Assembly: GCF_000379525.1 (NCBI RefSeq)
Contig: NZ_KB902408.1
Span: 1 to 64,000, forward strand
DNA length: 64,000 nucleotides
Reading direction: 5' to 3'
DNA from: Lamprocystis purpurea DSM 4197
GTDB taxonomy: Bacteria; Pseudomonadota; Gammaproteobacteria; Chromatiales; Chromatiaceae
The notes below the pieces were generated by a model, which had not been told where the DNA came from, did no database searches, and saw nothing but the letters and a program-made list of their open reading frames with translations. The position numbers and the translations under genes are program-made. This document shows positions 38,776 through 45,018 of the stretch, in pieces; the stretch's first letter is position 1; every line of letters starts with the position of its first letter.

Positions 38776-38959
38776 CTGACGCGTGTCGTCGCGGGCAGGC
38801 TCACTCACCGGCGACCTGAAGTGCCCGCGGGGTCCGAGATACGTTACACTCTGGCGCGGATGCCGCTCGGGGCCGACGCCGCTCGACCGGTTGAACTGCT
38901 GCTCGGTTGTACCGCGATTCTACGGTACGCCAAGCGCCACTGCACCTCGCCGAGGACTG

Positions 38960-39451
38960 ATGCCCGTGGTCAAGGCCCGCGCCGATATCCTGATCGAACG
39001 CTCGCCGGAGCACGTATTCGCTTACGTTGCCCGCGACTTCTTCTTGAACTATCCCCGGTGGTCCCCGGAGGTCAAGCGGCTCGAGGTGTTGACGGCAGGT
39101 CCGCTGCGGGTCGGCAGTCGGGCGCGCCAGCTGCGCACCGACCAGGGCCGCGAAAGTGAGTCCACCTTTCGGGTCACGGACCTGGATGCGCCGACCCGTA
39201 TCGCGTTTGCCGAGACCACGAACCTGTTCCGCATCAGTTACCGGCTGGCGCCGGTCGACGGACACACCCACCTCGTTTTCGACTTCGAATTGACCCGCCT
39301 GGAATTCTACATGCGTCCTTTTGAAAAGCTGATCCGGGTCACCATTCAGGAGGGCGCGGAGCGCGTCGTGCGCAACATCAAAGGATTGGTCGAGCGCCAG
39401 TCGGCGGAGCCGGACGGGGTGATGGGTGCGGCTGGATCGCCGCACGGGTAA
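38960..39451 (+). CDS. SRPBCC (START-like) ligand-binding domain protein
   Basis: 163 residues from the ATG at 38960, preceded by GAGG. The pattern KARADILIERSPEHVFAYVA with FFLNYPRWSPEV, then a run of beta strands and the long C-terminal helix LIRVTIQEGAERVVRNIKGL is the polyketide cyclase/dehydrase and lipid-transport (SRPBCC) fold, which encloses a hydrophobic ligand. The ligand is unknown. The frame extends upstream to 38783, but that part overlaps repeat-derived DNA. Confidence 0.75.
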   Translation: MPVVKARADILIERSPEHVFAYVARDFFLNYPRWSPEVKRLEVLTAGPLRVGSRARQLRTDQGRESESTFRVTDLDAPTRIAFAETTNLFRISYRLAPVDGHTHLVFDFELTRLEFYMRPFEKLIRVTIQEGAERVVRNIKGLVERQSAEPDGVMGAAGSPHG

Positions 39452-39487
39452 TCACGAGTCAATGAGATGTTAAACAACGAATACAAT

Positions 39488-39604
39488 CGTTGTCGTTGTC
39501 GTTGTCGTAATCGGAGAAGCGATGCAATTTAGGGTGCGAAAGAGTCCGGGGCGCTGCGATAATCTCGATTACGATTACGACAACGACAACGACAACGACA
39601 ACGG
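39488..39604. repeat. palindromic GTCGTT element, type F (copy F1, intact)
   Basis: The left end has three or four GTTGTC units followed by GTAATCG; the right end has the inverted version CGATTACGATTACGACAACG repeating GACAAC. The interior is GATGCAATTTAGGGTGCG. It is the uninterrupted form of the element at 25363-25650, in opposite orientation. It lies between the SRPBCC and LOV genes. Confidence 0.75.
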
Positions 39605-39673
39605 TGCTGGAACAATCACTCTGAATAGACTTATTTAACTGACTGAGCCGTTCACTACCGACAGGAGTAAAAC

Positions 39674-40135
39674 ATGGACTTCACAGCCGAAAAAGACCAG
39701 GGCACGATCCCCTTCGTGCTGTCCCAGATCCTCGATACCGTCGTCAATGGCGTTACCTTGTCGGACCCGGATCAGCCGGACAATCCCATCGTTTACGCCA
39801 ATGCGGCCTTCGAGTTGATCACGGGTTATGACCACGACGAGATTCTGGGCCGCAACTGCCGTTTCCTTCAGGGTGCGGACCGCGATCAGCCCGAGATCGA
39901 GCGCATCCGCGTGGGGATTCGCGATCAGCAATCGGTCACCGTCACCCTGCGCAACTATCGAAAGGATGGCTCGCTGTTCTATAACCGGTTCACCATTCGT
40001 CCGCTGTTCGACCCCCAGGGGCGGCTTATCTATTACCTCGGCATCCAGTACGATGTGACCGATCAGGTCGAAGCGCAGGAAGAATTGCAGCGGCTCAATG
40101 CCCAACTCGAGGCGATGGGCGAGCGGCTGGATTAG
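39674..40135 (+). CDS. short LOV-domain blue-light photoreceptor
   Basis: 153 residues consisting of a single PAS/LOV domain and a C-terminal helix. GRNCRFLQG carries the photoactive cysteine (Cys62) that forms the flavin adduct. The FMN-contacting residues are all present: the R-rich helix after it (DRDQPEIERIR), LRNYRKDGSLFYN, and the glutamine in YYLGIQYDVTD. The last 20 residues (EAQEELQRLNAQLEAMGERL) form a coiled-coil helix that may dimerise. No output domain is attached, so it must signal through a partner. It is convergent with the ABC transporter gene, with 1 nt between the two. Confidence 0.9.
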   Translation: MDFTAEKDQGTIPFVLSQILDTVVNGVTLSDPDQPDNPIVYANAAFELITGYDHDEILGRNCRFLQGADRDQPEIERIRVGIRDQQSVTVTLRNYRKDGSLFYNRFTIRPLFDPQGRLIYYLGIQYDVTDQVEAQEELQRLNAQLEAMGERLD

Positions 40136-41986: not shown

Positions 41987-42215
41987 TTAACCTACAAAAA
42001 TTATCCAGATTTGCGGAAATGTCCTCCGACGAACCGGCATCTCAGCGGATGGGCAGTGTCCGGCGCTGTCCGTCCGTCGTATTTCACCGCAATCGGGCCA
42101 GGATCGCGTTGCGTATTTTCACGGCCCGAGCCCGCGTTCTCTTGTAACCTGCCGATACTTTATTGCAGCGCGTGGTCTTATGACCGACGGCTGCTCAGTG
42201 ATATCGGGAGCTTCC

Positions 42216-42581
42216 ATGAAACTCGTCATCTCCATCGCCGGCGACAACCTGCAATCGCCGTTCGACGCCCGCTTCGGGCGCGCCGCCGCCTTCTGTCTGG
42301 TCGACAGCGACACCGGGGCCTGGACTGCCCACGCCAACCCGGCACTGGAGGCGGCGGGCGGGGCCGGGGTCCAGGCGGCACAGTTCGTCGCCGGTCTGGG
42401 TGCGCGGGCGGTCGTCAGCGGGGCCTATGGTCCCAAGGCCTATGCCAGTCTGTCCGCCGCGGGGATCGCCATGCATCTTGCGCCCGGCAACGCGCCGCGC
42501 ACCGCCGCCGACGTGCTGGCGCAGTTCCAGGCCGGTGCCTTGAACCAGGCCCAGGCCGCCACCCAGGACGGCCGCCACTGA
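42216..42581 (+). CDS. NifX/NifB-like dinitrogenase FeMo-cofactor-binding domain protein
   Basis: 121 residues of the NifX/NafY/VnfX-like fold: MKLVISIAGDNLQSPFDARFGRAAAFCLVD, then GAGVQAAQFVAGLGARAVVSGAYGPKAYASL. Such proteins bind iron-sulfur or mixed-metal clusters. GGGAG precedes the ATG. It opens a five-gene operon; its TGA overlaps the ATG of the next gene by one base. There is no nitrogenase gene in the window, so a role in another metallocluster is more likely. Confidence 0.82.
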   Translation: MKLVISIAGDNLQSPFDARFGRAAAFCLVDSDTGAWTAHANPALEAAGGAGVQAAQFVAGLGARAVVSGAYGPKAYASLSAAGIAMHLAPGNAPRTAADVLAQFQAGALNQAQAATQDGRH

Positions 42582-43441
42582 TGCGGATCGTCGTTGCCAG
42601 CGGCAAGGGCGGCACCGGTAAGACCACGGTCGCGACCAGCCTGGCGCTGGTTGGAGGGGAGTCGGTGCGCTGTCTGGATTGCGACGTGGAGGCGCCCAAT
42701 GCCGCGCTCTTCCTCCATCCGGTGCTGGACCGGCGCCAGGAGGTCGGCATCCCGCTGCCGCGCGTCGACACCGCGCTCTGCACCCACTGCGGCAAATGCG
42801 CCGAGGTCTGCCAGTATCACGCCATTGCCGTGCTCGGCCAGACCACGCTGGTGTTCCCGGAACTCTGCCACGGCTGCGGCAGTTGCACCCGGCTCTGCCC
42901 GGAGGCCGCTATCACCGAACACCTGCATGTCACCGGTGTGCTGGAGGGCGGTCTGACCGCCGACGGGTTGGAGTTCGCGCGGGGGCTGCTGCAGGTCGGC
43001 GAGCCGATGGCCGTGCCCGTCATCCGCGAACTGAAACGCTGGCCGCCGCTGCGCCGGCCCGCACTCGAGATCTGGGATGCGCCCCCCGGCGCCTCCTGTC
43101 CGGTGGTGGAGACGCTGCGCGGTGCGGATTTCGCGCTGCTTGTCACCGAGCCGACCCCCTTCGGTCTGCACGATCTGAAACAGGTCGTCGGCATCGCCCG
43201 CGCGCTGGAGATCCCCGCGGGGGTGGTCGTCAATCGCGACGGCATCGGCGATCAGGGGGTCGATGCTTACTGCGCGGATCAGGGCTTACCGATTCTGCTG
43301 CGCATCCCGATGGAACGGCGCATTGCCGAGGGGCTGGCGCGCGGCCGGTCGCTGCTGGAGACCGCGCCGGATTATCGGCCGGCCTTCCAGGCATTGCTGG
43401 CGGCCATCCAGGACCGGGTGAACACGGAGTACGCACCATGA
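42581..43441 (+). CDS. MinD/Mrp-family P-loop ATPase with inserted two-cluster ferredoxin domain, first copy
   Basis: 286 residues. It starts MRIVVASGKGGTGKTTVA, the deviant Walker A of the ParA/MinD family, followed by LDCDVEAPNA. At about residues 66-110 is an inserted bacterial ferredoxin with CTHCGKCAEVCQYHAI and CHGCGSCTRLCPEAAI, two [4Fe-4S] clusters. DAPPGASCPVVE and VTEPTPFGLHDL complete the ATPase. Proteins of this type occur in pairs in anaerobes, including in the orange-protein cluster of Desulfovibrio. It probably uses ATP to move or insert a metal cluster. Confidence 0.88.
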   Translation: MRIVVASGKGGTGKTTVATSLALVGGESVRCLDCDVEAPNAALFLHPVLDRRQEVGIPLPRVDTALCTHCGKCAEVCQYHAIAVLGQTTLVFPELCHGCGSCTRLCPEAAITEHLHVTGVLEGGLTADGLEFARGLLQVGEPMAVPVIRELKRWPPLRRPALEIWDAPPGASCPVVETLRGADFALLVTEPTPFGLHDLKQVVGIARALEIPAGVVVNRDGIGDQGVDAYCADQGLPILLRIPMERRIAEGLARGRSLLETAPDYRPAFQALLAAIQDRVNTEYAP

Positions 43442-44340
43442 TGAAACAACTGATCGTCCTGAGCGGCAAGGGCGGTACCGGCAAGACCAGCGTCACCGCC
43501 GCCTTTGCGCACCTGGCCGCGGGGGGGCGGCTGGCCGGTCAGGTGGTGATCGCCGACGCCGATGTCGATGCCGCCAACCTGGAACTGGTGCTGCAACCCC
43601 AGGTGCTGGAAACCCAGCCGTTCCAGGGCGGGCAGGTGGCCGTGATCGATCAGGACACCTGCCTGGTGTGCGGCGGCTGTGCGGATGTCTGTCGGTTCGA
43701 TGCGATCATCGAGCGCGACGGCCAGTACCTGGTCGACCCCATCGCCTGTGACGGGTGTGCCGCCTGTGTTTATCAATGTCCGACCGAGAGCATCCACATG
43801 GAGCCGCAGGTGGCGGGCAAGTCCTATGTCTCGGAAAGCCGTTACGGGCCGCTCTATCACGCCAACCTGGACCCCGGGCAGGAAAACTCCGGCAAGCTGG
43901 TGACCCTGGTCAAACAGCGTGCCCGGTTGCGCGCGCTGGACGATGACCGGCAACTGGTGCTGGTGGACGGGCCGCCCGGTATCGGCTGTCCGGTCATCGC
44001 GGCGGCGTCCGGCGCCGACCTGGCGCTCATCGTCGCCGAGCCGACCGCGGCCGGTGTGCACGACATGCAGCGGGTGCTGGGTACCTTGCGCCATTTCGGC
44101 GTCCCGGCGCTGGTCTGCATCAACAAGGCGGACATCTACCCGGAGGGCGCCGCGGCGATCGAGACCTCCTGCCGCGCGGACGGCGTGGCGACCGTCGGCC
44201 GGATTCCCTTCGATGCGACCGTGGCCACTGCCATGGTGGCCGGGGAAGCCGTGACCGCCTTTCGGCCCGCGGCCCCGGCCAGTCTTGCCATTGCCGCGGT
44301 CTGGGAGCGTGTCCTTGCGTCCCTGGAAGCGCCGGCATGA
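43438..44340 (+). CDS. MinD/Mrp-family P-loop ATPase with inserted ferredoxin domain, second copy
   Basis: 300 residues, paralogue of the preceding gene and overlapping it by 4 nt (ATGA). It has LSGKGGTGKTSVT, ADADVDAANLELVL, then CLVCGGCADVCRFDAI and CDGCAACVYQCPTESI, then VDGPPGIGCPVIAA and VAEPTAAGVHD. The two ATPases probably form a heterodimer, as proposed for similar pairs. ATG at 43438 chosen for the overlap; 43441 is possible. Confidence 0.88.
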   Translation: MMKQLIVLSGKGGTGKTSVTAAFAHLAAGGRLAGQVVIADADVDAANLELVLQPQVLETQPFQGGQVAVIDQDTCLVCGGCADVCRFDAIIERDGQYLVDPIACDGCAACVYQCPTESIHMEPQVAGKSYVSESRYGPLYHANLDPGQENSGKLVTLVKQRARLRALDDDRQLVLVDGPPGIGCPVIAAASGADLALIVAEPTAAGVHDMQRVLGTLRHFGVPALVCINKADIYPEGAAAIETSCRADGVATVGRIPFDATVATAMVAGEAVTAFRPAAPASLAIAAVWERVLASLEAPA

Positions 44341-44633
44341 AGGAAACCGCCTTGGAACAGGCCGTGCTCGCGCGGCTGCAGTCGGTCATTGATCCCGAAA
44401 CCAACACCGATGTGGTGCGGATGCGCCTGGTGGAGGGTGTGCGGGCCGATCCGGACGGGCGGGTGCATTACACCTTTCGCCCATCGTCCTTTGTCTGTCC
44501 GTTGGCCGTCTCCCTGGCCGTGGACATCAAGAAAGCCGTGGCCCAAGTGCCCGGCGTGACCTCGCAAGCCATCACCGTCAGCGGTTATGTGCAGGCAGAG
44601 GTTTTGCAACACTCGATTAATCAGGAACTTTGA
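44337..44633 (+). CDS. DUF59/MIP18-family iron-sulfur assembly protein
   Basis: 98 residues. LEQAVLARLQSVIDPETNTDVVRMRLV is the DUF59 (MIP18/PaaD/SufT) opening, and VCPLAVSLAVDIKKAV holds the conserved cysteine. Family members help load iron-sulfur clusters on target proteins. It overlaps the preceding ATPase by 4 nt, supporting a cluster-assembly role for the operon. Confidence 0.85.
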   Translation: MKETALEQAVLARLQSVIDPETNTDVVRMRLVEGVRADPDGRVHYTFRPSSFVCPLAVSLAVDIKKAVAQVPGVTSQAITVSGYVQAEVLQHSINQEL

Positions 44634-44634
44634 T

Positions 44635-45018
44635 ATGAGAATCGCAGTCACCGCGGAAAGCAACGACGGGCTCGACAGCCTGGTCGCCCAGCATTTTGGC
44701 CACGCGGCCTTCTTTGTGCTGGTGGACATGGATAACGGTGTGATGACCGCCACCGAGTCGCTGGCCAACCCCTTTGCCGAGGCGCACGAGCCCGGCCAGA
44801 TCCCCGATTTCATCAAGGCGCAGAACGCCAATGTGATTCTGAGCGGCGGCATGGGCGGACGTGCCATCGGGTTCTTCGAGCAGGCCGGCATCCAGGCCGC
44901 GACCGGTGCGCGCGGCACGGTCCGCGAAGCGCTGGAACACTTCCTGGGCGGCCAACTGACCGCCGCGGCCCCCTGCGCGGAAAGCGTGGAGCACGGGCAC
45001 AAACACAGTCACGACTAG
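44635..45018 (+). CDS. second NifX-like metallocluster-binding protein with His-rich tail
   Basis: 127 residues: MRIAVTAESNDGLDSLVAQHFGHAAFFVLVDMD, then ANVILSGGMGGRAIGFFEQAGIQ, the NifX/orange-protein fold. The C-terminus CAESVEHGHKHSHD is rich in His and could bind metal. It starts 1 nt after the DUF59 stop. With the first gene of the operon it gives two NifX-like proteins around two ATPases, the arrangement that recalls the orange-protein complex. Confidence 0.83.
   Translation: MRIAVTAESNDGLDSLVAQHFGHAAFFVLVDMDNGVMTATESLANPFAEAHEPGQIPDFIKAQNANVILSGGMGGRAIGFFEQAGIQAATGARGTVREALEHFLGGQLTAAAPCAESVEHGHKHSHD

Follow-up and report, generated by a model that had tools for sequence, protein, structure and literature searches.

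The window examined here, a 64,000-nucleotide stretch of the Lamprocystis purpurea DSM 4197 genome (contig NZ_KB902408.1, positions 1 to 64,000), contains a five-gene operon which a sequence-only reading had described as orange-protein-like. It encodes two DiNase (NifX-domain) proteins, D1 and D2, resembling the orange protein (ORP) and the C-terminal domain of MrpORP respectively, two MinD/ParA-type ATPases, A1 and A2, each with an inserted ferredoxin domain, and a DUF59 protein. The features are as follows.

42216-42581, + strand: D1, an ORP/Orp8-like DiNase (NifX-domain) protein of 121 residues
42581-43441, + strand: A1, a MinD/ParA-type ATPase with inserted ferredoxin, 286 residues, of the A1 paralog lineage of orp-type clusters
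42761-42913, + strand: inserted 2x[4Fe-4S] ferredoxin domain of A1, residues 61-111, with Fer4 family matches
43097-43099, + strand: Cys173 of A1, in switch II (DAPPGASC), spaced as in NifH (DVLGDVVC)
43438-44340, + strand: A2, a MinD/ParA-type ATPase with inserted ferredoxin, 300 residues, of the A2 paralog lineage of orp-type clusters
43639-43800, + strand: inserted 2x[4Fe-4S] ferredoxin domain of A2, residues 68-121, with Fer4 family matches
43987-43989, + strand: Cys184 of A2, in switch II (DGPPGIGC)
44337-44633, + strand: DUF59 (SufT/MIP18-like) protein of 98 residues, an accessory gene (PF01883, 2e-14)
44635-45018, + strand: D2, a DiNase protein like the MrpORP C-terminal domain, with a C-terminal Cys and a His-rich tail, 127 residues
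42109-42171, + strand: upstream block conserved between the window and locus L069, probably containing the promoter

The coordinates of the open reading frames bear out the compact arrangement described earlier, with five genes on the + strand overlapping or lying 1 nt apart. D1 and A1 share 1 nt, the A1/A2 and A2/DUF59 junctions overlap by 4 nt each and a single nucleotide separates DUF59 from D2; overlaps of 1-4 nt and a 1-nt gap on one strand are typical of translational coupling. Pfam agrees with the original description of the products (a NifX-like protein, two MinD ATPases with inserted double [4Fe-4S] domains, DUF59 and a His-tailed NifX-like protein), giving matches above cut-off for each named part of all five genes. 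These comprise Nitro_FeMo-Co (the DiNase domain, PF02579) in D1 (5e-15) and D2 (2e-20), CbiA/ParA and Fer4 domains in both ATPases (CbiA at 7e-13 in A1 and 3e-11 in A2) and FeS_assembly_P (DUF59) in the fourth gene. The host, putatively a purple sulfur bacterium in the sequence-only reading, is one: its genome has nifH, on contig C133, and genes for BchX and a BchL-like protein, on contig C58. The closest named genome is that of 'Chromatiaceae bacterium ppb02' (97% in A2).

The two ATPases form a distinct pair. When A2 was compared with the 6.9 Mb genome at E 1e-8 the sole other match was A1, and a tree of 72 ATPases divides into two clades of 36, corresponding to A1 and A2, with support of 100 each. 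Desulfobacterota ATPases adjoining MrpORP genes fall into both clades, so that the phylogeny of the pair, proposed as a check in the sequence-only reading, places A1 and A2 in two paralog lineages found beside MrpORP in Desulfobacterota orp-type clusters. With D1 also ORP-like, the term 'orange-protein-like' is supported. At one locus of this kind, L200, the ATPase pair is divergent from a sigma54-type regulator, an ORP-like DiNase and MrpORP, an arrangement resembling the published orp operons of Desulfovibrio vulgaris (PMC6345978, PMC3897727). Our use of Orp names follows gene order and clade membership, the D. vulgaris Orp3, Orp4 and Orp8 proteins lying outside the tree and comparisons; the correspondence of A1 with Orp3 and of A2 with Orp4 is one of gene order only and is not asserted.

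Association between these genes extends well beyond the window. Of the 53 loci where A2 is flanked by no less than 4 kb on either side, 52 have an A1 gene nearby, 50 have one or more DiNase genes and 42 have two or more. Since A1 and DiNase genes recur beside A2 in this way, the grouping is not a matter of chance: A1, A2 and at least one DiNase gene travel together. The ratio of non-synonymous to synonymous substitution rates (dN/dS), measured against two close relatives, is 0.08-0.16 for the ATPases.

Conservation within the pair centres on cysteines. Both ATPases have the deviant Walker A motif SGKGGTGKT. The eight ferredoxin cysteines are present in all 68 A1 sequences and in 72-74 of 74 A2 sequences, while the switch-II cysteine is invariant in each lineage (A1 Cys173 in 68/68, A2 Cys184 in 74/74) and lies seven residues after the switch-II Asp in A1 and A2 alike. 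At this position in the same genome, Cys is also found in NifH, BchX and the BchL-like protein, Asp in Mrp and His in a MinD-like protein. In NifH, the cysteine concerned (Cys132) is a ligand of the bridging cluster. A1 and A2 are P-loop ATPases, as are NifH, BchL and BchX, and agree with them in the placing of this cysteine, but differ in being two diverged paralogs with an inserted 2x[4Fe-4S] ferredoxin. They also resemble the Mrp/NBP35 (ApbC) Fe-S carriers in the deviant Walker A motif and the ParA/NUBPL Pfam match, yet have a different switch-II residue and no CXXC outside the ferredoxin insert, all CXXC motifs in A1 and A2 lying within it.

The two DiNase proteins are of different kinds. 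The best PDB matches of D1 are MTH1175 (1e-12) and the D. gigas ORP (2wfb, 2e-11), and its motifs FGRA, GAGxQxA and GPKA are common to the ORP-like DiNases of orp-type clusters. D2 is closest in the PDB to PH0822 and TM1816 and aligns with positions 265-364 of the MrpORP model NF041136 (2.5e-19), that is, with the C-terminal DiNase domain, sharing with MrpORP C-termini the motifs HFGH, HEPGxxP and GGMGxRA and a C-terminal Cys/His. MrpORP joins a P-loop nucleoside triphosphatase (NTPase) to a DiNase domain with CxHFGHC and CDH motifs. D2, by contrast, is a lone domain with no fused NTPase, and the cysteines of the CxHFGHC motif are missing: HFGH and the C-terminal Cys are kept, alanine takes the place of both flanking cysteines, and the tail is rich in His.

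In D. vulgaris, His-tagged Orp3 co-purifies with Orp4 and Orp8, the apo-Orp3-Orp4-Orp8 complex takes Fe-S from MrpORP, and MrpORP is located at the pole (PMC6345978). The window operon resembles the ORP complex in its pair of MinD/ParA-type ATPases, which have two [4Fe-4S] motifs apiece and belong to orp-type-cluster lineages, in its Orp8-like DiNase, D1, and in D2, another DiNase, of the sort that MrpORP contains as a fused domain. It differs in that MrpORP itself is absent, no protein in the genome scoring over the NF041136 cut-off and the matches being to NTPase-only Mrp and the D2 region. Further differences are that no sigma54 regulator adjoins the operon, that there is one operon where D. 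vulgaris has two divergent ones, and that DUF59 is added and D2 stands alone, with alanines for the motif cysteines and a His tail. The operon, then, is an ORP core that lacks MrpORP but has DUF59 and a free-standing D2 resembling the MrpORP C-terminus, and it occurs in phototrophs.

The phyletic distribution of the ATPase pair is patchy. It was found in 34 of 210 genomes of the family as defined by GTDB (12 of 61 genera), whereas a draw of 369 genomes from the class yielded 6 carriers. In trees of carrier A2 and A1 sequences, made by a quick method, Chromatiaceae copies occupy three separate places, which implies at least three acquisitions of the pair in this family. Type A, that of the window, lies inside a clade of Anaerolineae (Chloroflexota) and one short Gemmatimonadota contig, with support of 100 and 98; type B comprises ten Chromatiaceae genomes; and type C is represented by G032 and G044, close to which G005 falls in the A2 tree. 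From these trees, the pair has probably been shared with another phylum by gene transfer, in a direction as yet unproven. The PadR regulator found 5' of the operon is 73% identical between a congener, G035, and the Anaerolineaceae locus L070. It is unlikely that L070 is a mis-binned Chromatiaceae contig, given several other Anaerolineae metagenome-assembled genomes in the clade, and its G + C content of 0.56, against 0.65 in the window, also argues against a stray Chromatiaceae origin. That a single family has gained the pair no fewer than three times suggests that it confers a selectable advantage where habitats are sulfidic and anoxic.

The orthologous locus in Allochromatium vinosum, with the order DUF5320-like, D1, A1, A2, D2, was matched by order and annotation to Alvin_1741 to Alvin_1737. 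In Table 1 of a comparison of growth on pyrite and on Na2S, all five genes are among those most strongly down-regulated on pyrite, with log2 fold changes of -6.22, -5.48, -5.16, -3.35 and -2.98 (PMC11267869), which puts operon expression on pyrite 8-75-fold below that on dissolved sulfide. The medium contained ammonium (NH4Cl, 6.5 mM; PMC11267869). The available passages of that article, and a term search of it, contained no discussion of these five genes. Expression is tied to sulfide as a correlation rather than proof.

Taken together, we are inclined, by a modest degree, towards a sulfide-linked complex of ORP type, switched by ATP, whose task would be to load or reduce a metal-sulfide cluster carried by the DiNase proteins. 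A1 and A2 would act as a nucleotide-switched pair, probably a heterodimer, through the deviant Walker A lysine that both possess. The inserted ferredoxin domains may supply low-potential electrons, and the switch-II cysteines could bind or relay a metal-sulfide cluster at an ATP-sensitive interface. D1 and D2 would carry the cluster or its precursor, DUF59 might serve as a dispensable helper in cluster transfer and, in purple sulfur bacteria, the system would be active when dissolved sulfide is plentiful. The heterodimer, interface cluster, electron flow, identity of the metal and client are all parts of the scheme that we infer. The dedicated metallocluster assembly line supposed in the sequence-only reading is an idea of the same order, though better supported than before.

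Several observations weigh against this scheme. Neither A1 nor A2 has a Cys in the stretch from the ferredoxin insert to switch II, leaving NifH Cys97 with no counterpart, and a cluster at the A1-A2 interface can therefore only be conjectured. When profiles were compared, just local segments could be aligned with NifH, the equivalence at switch II resting on the motif as anchor. D2 is without the motif cysteines proposed as ligands in MrpORP. Finally, the pyrite and sulfide cultures of A. vinosum differ in growth rate and light-harvesting gene expression (PMC11267869); because growth rate and photosynthesis genes change too, sulfide is not isolated as the cause. A bolder version of the scheme, in which A1-A2 would be a heterodimeric NifH-like redox ATPase, using ATP to drive ferredoxin electrons through a switch-II-Cys cluster to an ORP-type metal-sulfide cluster, linked to sulfide, in use among anaerobes both bacterial and archaeal, and separate from nitrogenase as well as from the (bacterio)chlorophyll reductases, is conceivable but we think it improbable.

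The main rival to the ORP-type complex is a store of thiometalates or Fe-S, serving storage or detoxification, in which D1 and D2 would sequester thioferrate, as IssA does, or thiomolybdate-copper, as in the D. gigas ORP, formed at high sulfide, and the ATPases would load or discharge the store. For the alternative there is precedent in IssA of P. furiosus, a sulfur-responsive DiNase protein in which Fe and S are kept in the form of thioferrate (PMC5524996), much as the A. vinosum operon, in the tabulated data, is higher on sulfide. Relatives of the window operon moreover have a separate Gly/Arg-rich protein (isoelectric point, pI, about 9-12), or a Gly/Arg tail on D1 with a pI near 12, reminiscent of the tail of IssA. 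In the window, however, D1 and D2 lack the long cationic glycine/aromatic tail of IssA, their own tails being short (17 residues, pI 6.7, and 23 residues, pI 6.0) and free of aromatic residues, and no Gly/Arg protein gene adjoins the operon. The two ferredoxin-ATPases, which IssA does not have alongside it, exceed the needs of a simple store. Storage is thus a possibility to be kept in mind, though a rather doubtful one. The MinD/ParA fold of A1 and A2, together with the polar position of D. vulgaris MrpORP (PMC6345978), might instead point to MinD-like positioning in cell division or polar targeting, as was suggested for the D. vulgaris ORP complex. The division role in Desulfovibrio was itself termed a hypothesis and is unconfirmed (PMC4672049), and the invariant ferredoxin and switch-II cysteines also count against positioning. 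Since the pair is absent from 176 of the 210 family genomes, it is not a general division system, and we consider a positioning role very unlikely.

Exclusive service in nitrogenase cofactor maturation, with the NifX-like proteins acting in FeMo-co insertion only, had been raised at the outset as the counter-case. It finds some encouragement in the NifX-type domains and in co-occurrence, 19 of the 21 operon carriers in a draw of 116 family genomes having nifH. In that draw, 20 of the 21 carriers have bchX. The Fisher tests, uncorrected for relatedness, give p = 8e-11 for the operon with bchX and 3e-7 with nifH, but the latter link weakens to p = 0.04 among phototrophs only. Against an exclusive role, the same draw holds 28 nifH-positive genomes without the operon, and carrier G022, 99% complete, has no nifH. 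Outside the family nifH scores over cut-off in just 3 of 50 carriers, nearly all of them metagenome-assembled genomes of unstated completeness. The L. purpurea genome has further DiNase proteins, among them a NifB-type protein on contig C80 and another encoded some 4 kb away from nifH on C133, and the A. vinosum operon is, by the tabulated values, high in a medium with ammonium. On the co-occurrence and ammonium-medium data a nitrogenase-only role was rejected; it is largely refuted and retains hardly any probability.

The default annotation 'dinitrogenase iron-molybdenum cofactor biosynthesis' is accordingly one that these results argue against. A pared-down form of the ORP complex is available in a cultured phototroph, A. 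vinosum, and dissolved sulfide, as the condition of strong expression of the ortholog, gives a handle on the job of the ORP complex. The invariant switch-II Cys in each ATPase makes a NifH-like mechanism testable with two point mutations.

DUF59 appears to stand apart from the core. It follows A2 at the same position in several Anaerolineae loci and is intact in a close congener (G891, 92%), but the other type-A Chromatiaceae genomes tested yielded no copy at meaningful identity. In the 97% relative, L069 (8900-9080), an in-frame deletion of 123 bp removes the DPE motif, and dN/dS, at 0.25-0.41 among close relatives and from few changes, is above that of the ATPases. A recent insertion in this species was rejected, Anaerolineae relatives having DUF59 at the same place; with this shared site and its absence from other type-A Chromatiaceae, loss is the simpler explanation. 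DUF59 looks like an ancestral helper undergoing loss, outside the core.

Upstream of the operon, the block at 42109-42171 is kept between the window and L069, beyond which the sequence diverges. By a simple scan, no sigma54 consensus was found in the 350 nt upstream and no FNR consensus upstream of the operon, and both candidate sites were dropped. No regulator gene adjoins the operon in the window. PadR-family genes precede it in two loci of window congeners, L052 (11446-11823) and L053 (11194-11577), and in L070 (5914-6288), those of L053 and L070 being 73% identical; many other type-A loci carry a DUF134 gene, mostly divergent. A PAS/LOV-like gene (GRNCRFLQG; window 38783-40135) and the gene beside it are situated some 6 kb ahead of A2. 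The same two genes occupy that place in L056, L057 and L059, three genomes whose operon is of the unrelated type B; it is as though operons of both types had entered one neighbourhood.

Two additional short, divergent DiNase proteins are encoded in the genome, at L018 6808-7218 (C171) and L019 6803-7180 (C111). In relatives, a small Gly/Arg-rich, DUF5320-like protein (MPxxDGTGP start, pI about 10-12) is encoded just 5' of D1 (L049, L052, L053, L055, L070, L227, L230 and L231), whereas in type B D1 itself bears a Gly/Arg tail with a pI near 12 (L056, L057, L059, L061 and L066). Such a protein or tail, which brings to mind the cationic tail of IssA, is missing beside the operon of the window.

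Other neighbours recur across phyla (L072, L121, L128, L087, L095 and others), under names read from the sequences with no family scan: DUF134, NifU-like, DUF5320, metallo-beta-lactamase fold and radical SAM proteins, an FmdB-type zinc ribbon, DUF89, Mrp/NBP35, a sigma54/PAS regulator and Fur. The ATPase pair is often near NifU-like and Mrp/NBP35 genes.

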